Assembly (NCBI RefSeq): GCF_026151205.1
Contig: NC_087082.1
Location: 7,075,908-7,139,907 of the forward strand
Direction: 5' to 3'
Length of the DNA stretch: 64,000 bases
Source: Bolinopsis microptera
Taxonomy: Eukaryota; Ctenophora; Tentaculata; Lobata; Bolinopsidae
The position numbers were made by a program, and so were the translations under genes. Each line of letters opens with the position of its first letter. Position 1 is the stretch's first letter. This document shows, in pieces, positions 54,301 through 63,300 of this stretch. The notes beneath the pieces were generated by a model that made no database searches, had not been told where the DNA came from, and saw only the letters and a program-made list of their open reading frames with translations.

Positions 54301-57300
54301 TTAAGAATATATCCCGTGGTTTTACACTTCAGTACAGACAAAGTTCCAGACAACCGGAAAAATGTGTCATTGATCTTGACTATGCTGATGACATCGCAGG
54401 AATGGATGACACTGTTGAAGGACTGCAAGAAACTACGGACAATATTGCGAAATACTGTGGGCTTGGGGGTTTAAAGATGAACGCAAAGAAAACAGAGATC
54501 ATGGTCATTGGGAAAGATACATCGCAGCACCCACTCCCAGAGAATTGGACCATAGATATAACTGTCGATGGAAACTCTGTAAAGCAGGTCACTCAATTCA
54601 CTTATTTAGGTGCCAAAATTACATCAGATGGCAAGATTGATAAAGAAATAAGTGTCAGGATTGGAAAAGCAACCGGAGCGTAACCAACTCAACAACATTT
54701 GGAAGAATAAGAACATAAGCATTAACAACAAAGTGCGAATCTACATCGCAGCTGTTCTTACCATTCTGACCAATGGATGTGAGATATGGAACACGACTCA
54801 AGTGCAGACAAGAAGATTGGAGTCTTTCCATCAGTACTGCTTAAGAAGAATCCTGAGAGTGAGGTGGTTCCATCGAGTAAGTAATGAGGATGTTTTAAGA
54901 AGGGCATCAATAACTGCCCTTGCTGACATAATAACAACAAAACGGCTGCGTTGGTTTGGACATGTCAGTAGAATGCCTGAAGATCGGTTACCCAACTATT
55001 TACTTGAATGGAAACCCAAGCATGGGAAGAGGTCAAGAGGCAGGCCTAGGAAGAGCTTAAATCATAAATGATGTATTCATTGAGGATGCTGAGCAGAGAT
55101 TGGATCGTAATGGACTCACGATTGATTGTATGAGAAGATTAGCTGCAGACCGAAAGGGATGGAGAAATGTTACCCGCCGAAGTTGTATAATACAAAGTAA
55201 TGACGCAGTCGACGCAGACTAATCCTTTTGGATGGAGATCTCGCCATGTAACATGTAACATGTATTCTACCCTTAACTTAATAAGTTTTAATTATATGCA
55301 CAAATATTTTAACGAAATTATACAGAGTCTCTTTGCAGACGACACTGATCTGTTTCTGAAAGTTTCAATAGAGAGTGTAGAGGCGGTTATGACAGAACTC
55401 AGAACTTTTGCTCAGTGCTCGGGATGTTTTAAGCTAACATCGACAAAACTAGATGTATTCCTTTGGGTCGTGCTCGCCTTAATACAACTCTTCTAGCGTC
55501 CCTTCAAGAAAACTTACAACTCAGTATTAGTGGTGTGTTTATTAGGTAATTGAGAGTCCCATCTCTGGCAGACGAGTCCTGATTTTGTGTAACAGAATCT
55601 TGTAAAGTTTACACTGAAATGCAGGACCGAGGTGGTCGAATACGAAATTGTTTTTAAAAAGCATGTATTAGTATTACTGATATGATGCTTAAACTTAAAG
55701 CATGAATATTTAATGCACGATAACCCATTTGAGGAAGATCACCTGTGATATGATCATCAAATCTGGTCATATTTCGTATTTGTTGTTTTTACACAACTTT
55801 CATTATCATAGACACTGATCTAGAGATATTTTGATATTTTTACTGCTTAACGACTGCCTTTCTTGCTTATTGTACGAAAAATCAATTTACAAATTATCTG
55901 CTAAAGTTTTAAAAACGCAAAAAAAGATGAAAAATATTGGATTTTTGATGGTTTTAAATGTTGACCATTGTTAATGGTCTGGCCCGGTGCGCGCTACTTC
56001 GTAGCACTTCGAAGAAATTTAGACGAGTAACATCCGTCAATTTTAAATGCCTTCGAGCGTTCATTTTAATGTCCGTTCATAATTATGTCCGTTCATTTAA
56101 TGTCCAGTCAAATAAGGTCCAATAAGGTATATCAAGATTTAAAGTGGGCGGTTAGAATTAGCTGGTTAGCTGTAGAGGTCCAATAACGCTATAAATAAAT
56201 TTGATCGATGATTTTACGGAATTTCGAACTTTTTGGAAATAATTTTTGAAGAAAAAAATGTTGTCATTATTTGTTATTGAATATTGGTTTATCGGTTAGA
56301 AATTATCGCCGATAATATCGGTTGCAAACCCTAATATATGATTGTGCTTGATCATTCACATTGTATTTGGTATTATATATTACGAAATGGCGGAAGCTAT
56401 TATAATGAACTATAATACTAATAGCTGTATGATGTTATTTCAGAATTTTAGGTTTTAGGGTAAAATGTACAAGTAAGTTTATCAATACTCACCTGAGCAA
56501 TTTTCTTCATCTGACCCATCTTCACAATCTGGATCACTGTCACAAACAAATGAACAAACTTCTGAGTACCTTATCATGGACCTTATTTGGACGGACATTA
56601 CTTGAACGCTTGAGGCCCTAGCGTTTATCTTGATGTCCGTTCAAATAAAGTCCGTTCAATTAATGTCCGTCCAAGTTAAAGTTCGTTGAAATTTTTTCAA
56701 AAATTTTTCCATTTCGAACTTTTTACCCAGAATATGACAACTATAAGAACTTTATTGTGCCGTAAGTTAACGACGAAAAGGTTCTCCTTGGTCTGCCAGA
56801 GGCACAGAAAACTTTACTAGTATATGATGTTTTCAAGGGTCACTTGTCGGAAAAGTCAACGAAATAATGACACTCAACAACATAGTTCATGAGCTAGTCC
56901 CCGCCAACATGACAAACTTGTTCCAGCCTCTAGATATTACGGTAAATCGTGTTGCTAAGGACATTGTCCGACGTTTTTATAGTTCATATTACTGAGGGGA
57001 GGTAATGAAATTGAAACAGTGCTAGAAAAGCTCCACGTGATGTTAAGGTTAACCTAAAGTTGTCTAAGATAAAATTAAAACCACTTCACGCCGAATGGCT
57101 TGTAAAAGTGAACACTGAAATGCAGGACCAGGGTAGTTTGATACAAAAGGTTTCCACAAAGCTAGAAATCACTGATGCTTGTTTAAGCATGGACTATTTC
57201 ATGCACGAAAACCCATTTAATGAAGATGATATGTGATATTAGACACTGATCATGTACACATATTTTAACATTTTTACTGCTTAATGACGGCTATTCTTAC

Positions 57301-60300
57301 CTACTGTATAAAAAATGGATTAAAAAATCATTTGCTGAAATTAAAAAAACGTCAAAAATTGAAAAAAATTCGGATTTTTGATGGTTTTGAATGCCTTCGA
57401 GCGTTCATATTAATGTCCGTTCACAATTATGTCCGTTCATGTAATGTCCGTCCAAATAAGGTCCGATAAGGTATGTTTATTCGCACACATTATTGCATTT
57501 CTAAGATAAACATAAATTTCAGGATGAACCCTTCGGTCCCTCCAATTTTTAGGAAACAACAACTTACTCCATGTGCAGTCACTTTGTTGTGTTCCTGATC
57601 CAGAGGCTACCCCTTTGCCAGCTGGACATGCCGTGCAGGTAGAAGCTGCGTTTGCTGCTAAACTCCATTGATCTGCCGGACAGGCTTGACAGCCAGTTGA
57701 CTGATCCAGATACTGGCCCGCAAAACAATCTTCTGCAAGTATAGTCGAGTTTAGTCAAGTATTAGTTGAAAGTTTCAGCCGCTGGCAAGCAGCTTAAGGG
57801 GAGATACACCAAAAACGTTTTGCTCCGAACATCGATTTTATTTTATATTATGGTTAAATAGACAAAAAGAATAAAATTGCACACCTTCAAAATTTTCTAA
57901 AAATATTCCCTCATCGAGAAAAAAATATTTTTCTTTTTCGAAAATTTTTAAAATTTGGAGAAGTCTGTCACTGTAATACCGATAGTTCGGCCATTTAAAA
58001 AGTGTTTTGGCTGATTTTTTTTACTGAACATTACTTACACTCCGTACAAGACAACCTTATAAAGGATTATATAATTGAACAATAAATGACCAAGTTACAG
58101 ACCGAACAAGGTGGAAAAAGAAAAATTGGGATTTTTGCCTACCACCAAAGTTGTACATTTTACCACTCGCCCAGGTCATCAGATATCGCTTCAAAATTTC
58201 TTGTGAGTGTAGTTGATGATATGGAAAGCTTTTTGGAACAGGATTTCTCTCAATTCTGAGTTTTAAGGTATGAAATGTGGCCTCAAACGACTTAGTAAAA
58301 TTCATCGTAAAAAAGGGCAAAAAAGGCAGATTTAAGGCTTAAAATGCCTATAACTCAAAAAGTATCCGTTTTTTTGAAATAATTTTTACAGGATCGTAAT
58401 CAGCTTGGTAAGACGAATCTTTTAGTACCAAATTTATAATATTTAAAGACACAAAATTTGTAAAAAATTGGTACAATTTGTACAAAATTTAGACAATTGT
58501 TCGAGCTAGAAAATTATTTAAGACAATTTGTCTTCTAAAAGCACCTATTTGGTACTAAAAGATTCGTCTTACCAAGCTGATTACGATTCTGTAAAAATTA
58601 TTTCACAAAAACTGATACTTTTTGTTAGAAACAATTCTCCAACCTGAAATCACTGATAGCATTAGCATCTACAATAACGTTCTGTGAGCTGCATTCATTA
58701 TCTTGATTCATTGTGAAGGATGTAAAATTTGAAGTGGAGTCGCAATACAGTAATACACCCACCTTGAACAAAGAGAGTAACTTGGTCACTTTCAACAACT
58801 TTGTTGTCAGTATAAGTAGCCTTGCAGTAGTACTCTCCCTTGCTCCCCAGGACCAGGTTACCCAAAATAAGTTTAGACTCATACTGGGTGTTCCCCAAAT
58901 CCTGGTTTATAACGCTCATTTGCTGGATGTCTGACCCAGCAGAGTTTACTTTGTACCTGAGTTACAAGTGAGTCAGACGAGAGGGTGTAGAATAGCAAAA
59001 CACAAGCTGTATTCACAACAACAATCTTATTAAGACGTAGAAGAGGAACAACTTTATAGTTTGGTAATAAGCTGATAATCTTCTGAACAGAGAGAAAACA
59101 CGTACCATTGTACGTTGGTTACAGGGTTGATTACAGGGTTGCCCAAAGTGCAGGTAAACTGAACACTTTCACCCTCCGCTGCACTTATGTCTTCAGGTGG
59201 GATCACTACTCCCTCATCTGGAGAGAGAAAAGACGGTGTTAATATAAAACACGGTGTTAATAGAAAACACGGTGTTAATAGAAAACACGGTGTTAATAGA
59301 AAACACGGCCGTGTTAATAGAAAACACGGTGTTAATAAAAAACACGGTGTTGATAGAAAACACGGTGTAGATAGAAAACACGGTGTTAATATAAAACACG
59401 GTGTTAATATAAAACACGGTGTTAATATAAAACACGGTGTTAATATAAAACACGGTGTTGATAGAAAACACGGTGTTGATATAAAACACGGTGTTAATAT
59501 AAAACACGGTGTTAATATAAAACACGGTGTTAATATAAAACACGGTGTTAATATAAAACACGGTGTTAATATAAAACACGGTGTTAACATAAAACACGGT
59601 GTTAATATAAAACACGGTGTTAATATAAAACACGGTGTTAATATAAAACACGGTGTTGATAGAAAACACGGTGTTAATAGAAAACACTGTGTTAATAAAA
59701 AACACGGTGTTGATAGAAAACACGGTGTAGATAGAAAACACGGTGTTAATATAAAAGTCGTTTGAGGCCACATTACATAGCTTAAAACTCAAATCTGAGA
59801 GAAGTTCTACTCCAAAAAGTTTGATATGATCATCAGCTACACTCACAAGAATTTTTGAAGCGATATCTGCTGACCCGGGTGATTGGTGAAATGTACAACT
59901 TTAGAAGTGGGAAAAATTTCAATTTTTATTTTTTCGACCTTGTTTGGTCTGTAACTTCGTCATTTATCGTTCAATTATATAATCCTTTCAATGGCTTCTT
60001 GTACGGATTGTAAGTAATGTTCAGTAAAAAAATCAGCCAAAAAACTTTTAAAATGGCCGAACTATCAGTATTACAGTGACAGCCTTCTCCAAATTTTAAA
60101 AATTTTCGAAAAAGAAAAATATTTTTTTTTCTCGACGAGGGAATATTTTTAGAAAATTTTGAAGGTGCGCAATCTTATTATTTTTGTCTATTTAACCATA
60201 ATATAAAATAAAATCGATGTTCGGAGCAAAAACGTTTTTGGTGTATCTCCCCTTAAGATTCGAAGTACCCTTTTAGGGATGGTTCGCTTTTATTTGAATA

Positions 60301-63300
60301 TTGCAGATAAGTGTCAAAGTGTGTGCGGGTGGTGTTCACATACAATAGTTGCATTTCATTCACAGGAATTCCTTTCGAGCATCTGTGATGGGACCTCATA
60401 AACGTATAGTAATACCAATTATTGTACAAATACTAAACTTTGCTTGTTGACGTCAGTATTTCAGTCTACGTTTTTCGCACACATTATTGCATTTCTAAGA
60501 TTAACATAAATTTCAGGATGAACCCCTTCGGTCCCTCCAATTTTTAGGAAACAACAACTTACTCCATGTGCAGGCACTTTGTGATGTTCCTGATCCAGCG
60601 GCTACCTCTTTGCCAGCTGGACATGCCGTGCAGGTAGAAGCTGCGTTTGCTGCTAAACTCCATTCATCTGGCGGACAGGGTTCACAGCCATATGACTGAT
60701 CCAGAGCCTCGCCCGCAGCACAATCTTCTGCAAGTATAGTTGAGTTTAGGCAAGTATTTATAGTTGCAAGTTTCAGCCGCTGGCAAGCAGCTTAAGATTC
60801 GAAGTACCCTTTTAGGATGGTTCGCTTTTATTTGAATATTGCAGATAAGTGTCAAAGTGTGTGCGGGTGGTGTTCACATACAATAGTTGCATTTCATTCA
60901 CAGGAATTCCTTTCAAGCATCTGTGATGGGACCTCATAAACGTATAGTAATACCAATTATTGTACAAATACTAAACTTTGCTTGTTGACGTCAGTATTTC
61001 AGTCTATAATGTTTATTCGCACACATTATTGCATTTCTAAGATTAACATAAATTTCAGGATGAACCCCTTCAGTCCCTCCAATTTTTAGGAAACAACAAC
61101 TTACTCCATGTGCAGGCACTTTGTGATGTTCCTGATCCAGCGGCTACCTCTTTGCCAGCTGGACATGCCGTGCAGGTAGAAGCTGCGTTTCCTGCTAAAC
61201 TCCATTCATCTGTCGGACAGGGTTCACAGCCAGTAAACTGATCCAGAGACTGGCCCGCAGCACAATCTTCTGCAAGTATAGTCGAGTTTAGGCAAGTATT
61301 TATAGTTGCAAGTTTCAGCCGCTGGCAAGCAGCTTAAGATTCGAAGTACCCTTTTAGGGTGGTTCGCTTTTATTTGAATATTGCAGATAAGTGTCAAAGT
61401 GTGTGCGGGTGGTGTTCACATACAATAGTTGCATTTCATTCACAGGAATTCCTTTCGAGCATCTGTGATGGGACCTCATAAACGTATAGTAATACCAATT
61501 ATTGTACAAATACTAAACTTTGCTTGTCGAGGTCAGTATTTCAGTCTAGTAGTTGATATTAATATACTTTTAGTAATGAGTATGCAGTTGATTCGTATGG
61601 GTCTGTTTTTGGGGAGTAGTCGATGTTTATTTAATTATAAAATACTAGAAAACCGCGCACTTCACAAATCCTGCGTCACATTCGGCGGCCACTGGTGAAA
61701 GTAATCGGTATTAACAAACTTCTGAGTAGTTGATGTTAATAGACTTTTAGTTATGAGTATGTAGTTGATATTTATAGACTTCTGGGTAGTTTCTAATCCA
61801 TTTTGCCTCATTTTTTTCCAGATCAGATGCAACATTTAATAATCTACTGTCTCTGAAAAAATTAGGCGTTCAAAGGCGTTTCAAAGAGAACAATATAGGT
61901 GTTTTAATATTGAATGGGCGTGGTCTAAAATATTCGAATTTTCAAATTTCTGCGATGGCATCCTCGAACAAGTAAGTACAGTATGCCATCTACAAAGCAA
62001 CAACTCTCAAATATAAAACAAGGCGGATGTGTAAGACCCAACGTTTGCACACTGACTTTTGGCCCACCCTGTATTAATAGACTTCTGAGTAGTTCATGAT
62101 ATTTATAGACTTCTGAGTAGTTGATATTTATGGAATTATAGGAAGCTTATATGAGTCGAGCTGGTGAGTTGCTTGCGGAGGTGAGAGTAGTAAGTACTAT
62201 TAATGGATATCTTTATAAAAGAGCAGGGTAGTAAGTACTACTAATGGGATGAAATCATGTTTTGCTGCTAAATTATTTCCGCCCTAATATCAATGAGCGG
62301 TGTCGGGTGTACCACTACCTAGTTTGTAGGTAGTTGTCAAAGATAAAACCACTTCACGCCGAATGGGTGGTAAAAGTTAACACTGAAATGCAGGACTGAG
62401 GTAGTTTGATAAAAAAAAAGGTTTCCAAAAAGCGGGTATTACTGATGCTTTAAGCATGGAATATTTTATGCCCGAAAACCCATTTGATGAAGATGATATG
62501 GAATATTAGACAATAATCATGTTGATGTAAACATATTTTAACATGTTTACAGCTGATTAAAGACTGCTCTTCTTGCTTACTGTATGAAAAATATATTTAT
62601 AAATCATCTGCTAAAATTTAAAAAACGTAAAAAAAATGAAAAAAAATTTCAATTTTTGATGGTTTTGATTGTTCAAGTAATGTCCGTCGAAATAAGGTCC
62701 GATAAGGTAGTGGAAAACTATGGAAAACTATCATGTTTGATTAAACGTTTTAAAGTTAAAAGTTAATGGCAAACTCAAAAGTATTTAATGTCAAATTCAA
62801 AAAAGAGTTTATTAAAACTCAACCTGTGCAATTTTCTTCATCTGACCCATCTTCACAATCTGGATCTCCGCCGTCACAAACAAATGATTCCCGAATACAT
62901 TGCTCTTGATCCGCGCACTTTACAAATCCTGTGTCACATTCGGCGGCCACTGGTGAAAGTAATCGGTATTAACAAACTTCTGAGTAGTTGATATTAATAG
63001 ACTTTTAATTATGAGTATTTAGTTGATATTAATAAACTTTTAGTTATGAGTATGTAGTTGATACTTATAGACTTCTGAGTAGTTGAGATTAATAAACTTT
63101 TAGTTATGAGTATGTAGTTGATATTTATACACTTCTGTACACTTCTGAAATATGAGTAGTTGATATTGATAGACTTTTAGTTATGACTTTTAGTTAGTCA
63201 TATAGTGTATCAGATGACTTTAATCGTGAGAGGTTTTAATTTAAGTATAGCATCTGATCAACCGACGTAAAGATCACTTATTATCATCGCACCACATGAA

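Follow-up and report, generated by a model that had tools for sequence, protein, structure and literature searches.

A foldback element in a mosaic gene of Bolinopsis microptera carries a complete immunoglobulin cassette, probably acquired by break repair inside the element

The window analysed here is a 64,000-bp stretch of the Bolinopsis microptera genome (C11:7075908-7139907). Its minus strand carries a mosaic gene comprising an LDL-receptor class A (LDLR-A) exon (Pfam 37.1 bits, cut-off 24.1) and three tandem 165-nt exons of phase 1-1, each encoding a cysteine-rich ephrin-receptor-like module (Table 1). An earlier note, drawn from the letters of this DNA, had termed these exons ephrin-like blocks; three tandem units are indeed present, with weak Pfam support for the name, as both of the units tested score below the cut-offs of Ephrin_rec_like (20.1 and 15.8 bits; cut-off 23.1) and TNFR_ELAPOR1_6th (25.7 and 24.3 bits; cut-off 33.2). 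The module is abundant, with at least 150 matches in the genome (150 of 150 candidates scored; 475 in a first look), many in tandem arrays. Large arrays with a spacing of ~530-550 bp were observed at C3:7372155-7389625, C10:14540447-14564351, C13:11766124-11771191 and C4:3311968-3315911; many of their copies score identically, and these arrays probably represent a rapidly duplicating exon cassette. The host gene has a later LDLR-A exon (56485-56640) whose first half has been replaced by sequence resembling a mobile element, while its splice donor (CAG/GTGAGT) is intact. Given this truncation, the host gene may be decaying. We also noted by eye, at window positions 56050-56150, 56560-56700 and 57380-57470, repeated motifs of the GTCCGTTCA / GGACGGACATTA type in both orientations, which probably represent a further family of inverted-repeat elements surrounding the host exons.

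Tandem units 2 and 3 read GCAAGCAGCTTAAGATTCGAAG uninterrupted and thus keep an empty TTAA site, whereas unit 1 is split at this TTAA by a 2455-bp element (57798-60252) with TTAA at both flanks. Pairwise divergence among the units is 1.4-2.3% to the right of the TTAA and 3.7-6.8% to its left (three pairs each). The terminal 29 bp of the inverted repeats are 100% complementary and further stretches 85-97%; the right arm spans 503 bp including CTTAAG (59755-60257), and the left side (57793-58624) comprises the whole left arm, the loop and the initial ~96 bp of the right arm. The insertion, its duplicated TTAA, the empty site in blocks 2 and 3 and the ~500-bp inverted arms, all reported in the earlier note, are therefore borne out at base resolution. 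Relative to L010, a full-length copy from elsewhere in the genome, the window element aligns over positions 1-847, continues with foreign DNA and resumes at 911-1413. Some 63 bp of the right arm (L010 848-910) are absent and replaced by the foreign DNA, a gap of 63/1413 or 4.5% of the element. By eye, the insert junctions consist of a 2-bp filler, a blunt join and a 2-bp microhomology.

Table 1. Features of the host gene, the foldback element and its insert, in window positions.
Feature	Position	Strand	Remark
Host ephrin-receptor-like exon, unit 1	57568..57732	-	165 nt, phase 1-1
Left TTAA target-site duplication	57794..57797	.	
Foldback element: left arm (subfamily A), loop and first ~96 bp of right arm	57798..58624	+	with flanking CTTAA, equals L010 positions 1-847
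2-bp filler TT at junction of arm and donor piece 1	58625..58626	.	by eye
Donor piece 1	58627..58685	-	end of a later C5 Ig exon; likely splice donor present, acceptor absent
Donor piece 2: first Ig domain of the C5 gene and introns	58686..59227	-	within C5:16070973-16071514
Ig exon 2	58763..58956	-	194 nt, ends in phase 1, identical to donor
Ig exon 1	59106..59217	-	112 nt, starts in phase 1, identical to donor
18-bp minisatellite	59228..59756	.	29.2 units; last <=2 bp common to arm
Right arm (subfamily B)	59755..60252	-	equals L010 positions 911-1408
Right TTAA target-site duplication	60253..60256	.	
Host ephrin-receptor-like exon, unit 2	60563..60727	-	165 nt, phase 1-1
Host ephrin-receptor-like exon, unit 3	61105..61269	-	165 nt, phase 1-1
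Open frame with host LDL-receptor class A exon, cassette preceding unit 3	62822..62968	-	phase 1-1 by eye

The terminal end of the element (TTAAGGGGAGATACACC...) has 159 forward and 165 reverse matches with at most 3 mismatches in the 264.65-Mb assembly (232 contigs), compared to none for the reversed control, and the terminal inverted repeat (TIR) of the window element is thus not due to chance. The search for further copies that the earlier note had proposed therefore yields a family, no other member of which was found to bear an Ig. Of these 324 terminal matches, 100, all of them exact, were available to the survey of loci. A total of 59 loci were aligned (L010-L028 and L034-L073), a non-random sample of 19 best DNA matches and 40 exact-end matches. 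Full-length elements were read from 34 of these (1388-1421 bp), 33 of them with TTAA at both flanks; the exception, L062, has ATAA on one side. The family architecture consists of arms of ~668 bp (computed from the 77-bp spacing), a 77-bp loop and a total length of ~1413 bp. Such long inverted arms, making up almost the entire element around a short loop, correspond to the Foldback (FB) type. Kolobok, Sola3 and piggyBac are superfamilies that target TTAA. Over 57798..58624, the closest of the 34 copies to the window element are L010 and L053. Two other full-length foldbacks, L051 and L068, have nearly the same flanks, and may derive from one duplicated insertion or from two matches within the same repeat.

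Also identified was an 8.66-kb locus (L036; C10:1965179-1973840) that possesses the first 66 bp of the foldback together with its right end, and long ORFs with a DTCGGQNR stretch. This locus is a candidate for the autonomous partner of the family. Its three candidate ORFs gave no Pfam match above cut-off (one weak match to Vps39_1, 15.6 of 22 bits), and 21 related matches were found at other genomic sites, of which the three longest have 46-50% identity. Inspection, mostly by eye, of the inserted stretches in seven copies among the 59 aligned loci revealed no host-gene exons. Instead, these inserts comprise a gag/protease-like fragment (L034, by Pfam), a LINE-like ORF (L035, by eye), the long ORFs of L036, a high-copy ~90-bp repeat (L037; at least 42 matches, 1621 first-look candidates), an apparent nested inverted-repeat element (L072, by eye) and different loops (L058 and L040, by eye).

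Ahead of the minisatellite, the foreign part of the window element matches just two other places in the genome. Both lie in a single gene on C5, and their order and strand are the same as in the element. This multi-Ig gene, the donor that the earlier note had suggested looking for, is located on a different chromosome from the window (C11). Its first exon is signal-peptide-like by eye, with no Pfam match, and all five of the frames tested among its further Ig-like exons match Ig families (E up to 0.1), three of them above the curated cut-off. Donor piece 1 is identical at 59/59 positions to C5:16072470-16072528 (exon reading by eye), and is separated in the C5 gene from donor piece 2 by 955 bp that are skipped in the copy. 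Donor piece 2 differs from C5 by four counted substitutions and one 8-bp insertion, all intronic; one substitution sits in the tract preceding the first Ig acceptor, and the first minisatellite unit holds a fifth difference that was left out of the count. The 18-bp minisatellite unit is common to the donor intron, where it occurs in 19.8 copies compared to 29.2 at the window. Since introns and minisatellite were copied, no mRNA intermediate was involved. No element sequence was found in the 9.9 kb read around the C5 donor, and our search of the assembly found no second Ig-bearing element.

The two Ig exons, 306 nt in total, show no differences from the donor and keep the same splice sites. When joined, they match Ig_2 (E 3.7e-9), Ig_3, I-set, V-set and ig, all above the Pfam cut-offs. 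The intron between them is of phase 2, the outer borders are of phase 1 and the coding strand is that of the host, so that the intact, phase-1-flanked Ig exons described from the letters hold up with their frame open. Joining 60563-60727, the Ig exons and 57568-57732 yields one open frame, the conceptual translation of which reads ephrin-like, ephrin-like, Ig and ephrin-like with no stop; skipping the Ig exons also leaves the frame open. The element thus places a complete phase 1-1 domain in the sense strand of a phase-1 intron, the configuration expected for exon shuffling. On paper, the cassette could be spliced in or skipped with the frame kept, while 58627-58685 should be silent in splicing because a likely splice donor is present but the acceptor is missing. 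The ~500-nt arms fall within both introns flanking the cassette, and their predicted pairing in the pre-mRNA amounts to -671 kcal/mol, compared to -113 to -134 kcal/mol for five base-shuffles of one arm. Inverted repeats around exons have been proposed as promoters of back-splicing in mammalian cells (PMC4479058). Since the arms in the flanking introns can pair, we would expect the cassette to be variably spliced, and often skipped or circularised.

Comparison of the arms revealed a further discontinuity. A set of 24 diagnostic sites splits the arms of the family into types A and B, and an arm was considered callable with at least 18 informative sites, at least 80% of them of one type. The left arm of the window element is type A at 23/24 sites (the exception being common to L010 and L053), whereas its right arm is type B at 24/24. 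Among 60 elements (the 59 loci and the window), both arms were callable in 41, comprising 28 AA, 11 BB and 2 AB (the window and L050), or 15 AA, 3 BB and 2 AB without the copies used for defining the sites. The other 19 consist of four with a B and a mixed arm, and 15 with a single arm found or an uncallable arm. Concordant arms are hence the rule, in 39/40 other copies with both arms callable. Along the window element, A sites are strong to position 462 and weaker, A-leaning to 639 (sites present in roughly half of the A copies); a weak B-leaning site lies at 853 and strong B sites begin at 872, with the insert at 832/833. The change from A to B and the insert therefore coincide within 233 bases, an interval that depends on the weaker sites, or 410 using strong sites only. 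Two weak sites are contrary, 322 leaning B in the A part and 1335 leaning A in the B part. The only other A/B chimera among the 41 callable elements, L050 (C5:15180700-15182900), aligns over its full length with no large insert. Given L050, chimeras can arise without a large insert, and the chimerism of the window element could predate the Ig capture.

We also compared the ages of capture and insertion. Substitutions at 4/289 donor/copy bases outside the Ig exons place the capture at 0.69% per lineage (0.19-1.77), or at 0.87% (0.24-2.23; 4/230) once the 59-bp piece, part of which is exonic in the donor, is set aside. Private differences of the window element, 12 in 1330 element bases, limit its residence to at most 0.90% (0.47-1.58). 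Because these ranges overlap, the dating gives no order of insertion and capture, and cannot tell an element filled in place from one that arrived already loaded. A residence older than the capture would favour filling in place; such an age would follow from the terminal branch of 0.0283 that FastTree assigned to the window element, a value set aside because the element combines two subfamilies.

Taken together, these findings suggest that the foldback inserted into the ephrin-like intron, then broke, and was repaired from the C5 Ig gene and the arm of a B copy, a sequence of events we consider likely. Under this model, a non-autonomous, TTAA-targeting foldback would have entered the intron separating two tandem ephrin-like exons of phase 1, an insertion that is directly observed, and as a near-palindrome would then have suffered a break; long near-palindromes are described as able to stall replication and break (PMC7999016). 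Repair proceeding in one direction may have copied 59 bp, skipped 955 bp and copied roughly 900 bp or more from the C5 gene, both patches of which are seen in the window. The longer stretch would comprise the Ig domain, its introns and part of the intronic minisatellite. Repair would have terminated on the arm of a B-subfamily copy with the loss of ~63 bp of element, the two-piece donor and the A/B arms thereby reflecting additional template switches. The outcome would be an animal 'Pack-TIR' whose Ig cassette is complete, symmetric in phase 1 and oriented along the host coding strand. The earlier note had proposed that a transposon delivered the Ig domain. Foreign DNA does lie within a genuine foldback, with a known donor and a fitting frame and strand, but we favour multi-template break repair over simple delivery by transposition because the 63-bp gap, the two non-adjacent donor pieces, the lack of a second Ig-bearing element in the assembly and the arm mismatch fit break filling better. 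Animal single-copy Pack-TIRs, as described by Tan et al. (2021, PMC8277862), mostly look like filled breaks inside resident elements, with a median gap of 4.6% of the element, close to the 4.5% observed here, and a median microhomology of 2 bp.

Several observations count against this repair model, namely the sign of decay in the host gene, the existence of L050 as a chimera with no large insert, the weak contrary sites 322 and 1335 and the overlapping clocks. The location of the donor on another chromosome also argues against break filling; in that study, 56.9% of Pack-TIRs lie within 15 kb of their parent and multicopy, transposition-linked ones lie far from theirs, and it is the latter that the distance observed here resembles. 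Capture of the Ig elsewhere, followed by transposition of the loaded element into the intron (FoSTeST; Tan et al. 2021), would account for this distance, as well as for the intact TIRs with TTAA at both flanks and the overlap of capture age with the residence bound. This route requires two events compared to one for repair in place, and a second Ig-bearing element was not found in the assembly; we regard it as a rather unlikely alternative. Neighbouring A and B elements flanking an Ig segment might instead have moved as a unit via their outer ends, which would explain a left arm of type A and a right arm of type B. However, the 9.9 kb read around the donor holds no element sequence, the donor Ig remains in place, and extra deletions would be needed for the missing inner element parts and the skipped 955 bp, such that we judge this composite event very improbable. 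Although a single assembly forms the basis of the study, an artefact joining unrelated loci is more improbable still, as donor and copy differ by four substitutions, an 8-bp insertion and array length, and the target-site duplication and empty site agree exactly.

Compatible with any of these origins, the structure may be devoid of function, the Ig exons being ignored or removed in splicing within a decaying host gene, and it is towards this possibility that we lean slightly. It is consistent with the disrupted downstream LDLR-A exon, the strong pairing of the intronic arms and the very young age of the cassette, given which intact Ig exons need no selection. Conversely, substitutions are absent from the 306 Ig exon bases, compared to 4 in 289 other donor/copy bases (Fisher p 0.055) or to 4 in 230 when the 59-bp piece is excluded (p 0.033), a contrast that is at best suggestive, as constraint on the donor itself could account for it. 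More speculatively, the host may now be gaining an Ig domain, with intronic phase-1 foldbacks acting as break-prone acceptors at which multi-template repair takes up whole, phase-matched domain cassettes of unlinked genes, and with their arms yielding an optional, alternatively spliced exon pair. We consider this proposal doubtful; if true, it would constitute a concrete mechanism by which domains are inserted into introns in animals, and if the cassette is spliced in frame, it would represent exon shuffling caught with its vehicle attached. Given that the empty site, vehicle, donor, junctions and an intact symmetric domain occur in one genome at ~1% divergence, mechanism, splicing and population frequency are directly testable.

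Capture of gene fragments by such elements is already known from animal Pack-TIRs (PMC8277862) and from the RRM capture of Turmoil-1 (PMC2572040). Among open-access literature, represented mainly by titles and the starts of abstracts, we found no precedent for a complete, phase-matched domain between host coding cassettes together with its empty site and donor; nor did titles and abstract starts yield an Ig capture by a transposon. The arms of two subfamilies around the insert are new here. The window element shares with Pack-TIRs TIR-element sequence and target-site duplications on both sides, a parent that is not beside the element, and a DNA-level copy with introns. Its captured length falls outside the 80-120% of parent used as a search criterion by Tan et al., as 955 bp were skipped and array lengths differ, a criterion we read as a filter for recent unrearranged cases and not as a definition of the class.

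The closest counterparts are the single-copy, gap-filling Pack-TIRs of animals (Tan et al. 2021, PMC8277862), which likewise combine an inverted-repeat DNA transposon and target-site duplications with a DNA-level host-gene fragment, an identifiable parent, a small element gap, short microhomology and a single copy. Their median capture is 224 bp and, in the portion of the study covered, their host-fused copies contribute UTRs or retained introns, whereas the window element holds an entire phase 1-1 domain of two exons that sits in frame between coding cassettes, with an insert patched from two donor pieces and arms of two subfamilies. Ssk-FB4 of Drosophila melanogaster, from the same study, is also a Foldback (FB4), with ~700-bp arms and captured coding sequence; it is multicopy, keeps the structure of the parental gene and is transcribed, whereas the window element is single-copy and, if read at all, would be an internal cassette of a host gene. 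In the C. elegans element Turmoil-1 (Sela et al. 2008, PMC2572040), two RRM exons and their intron were similarly copied into a long inverted transposon arm, and the authors suggest that an insertion may have created a new open reading frame. There, the captured RRM belongs to the terminal repeats, whereas in Bolinopsis microptera the capture is unique, occupies one arm only and lies between phase-matched host exons.
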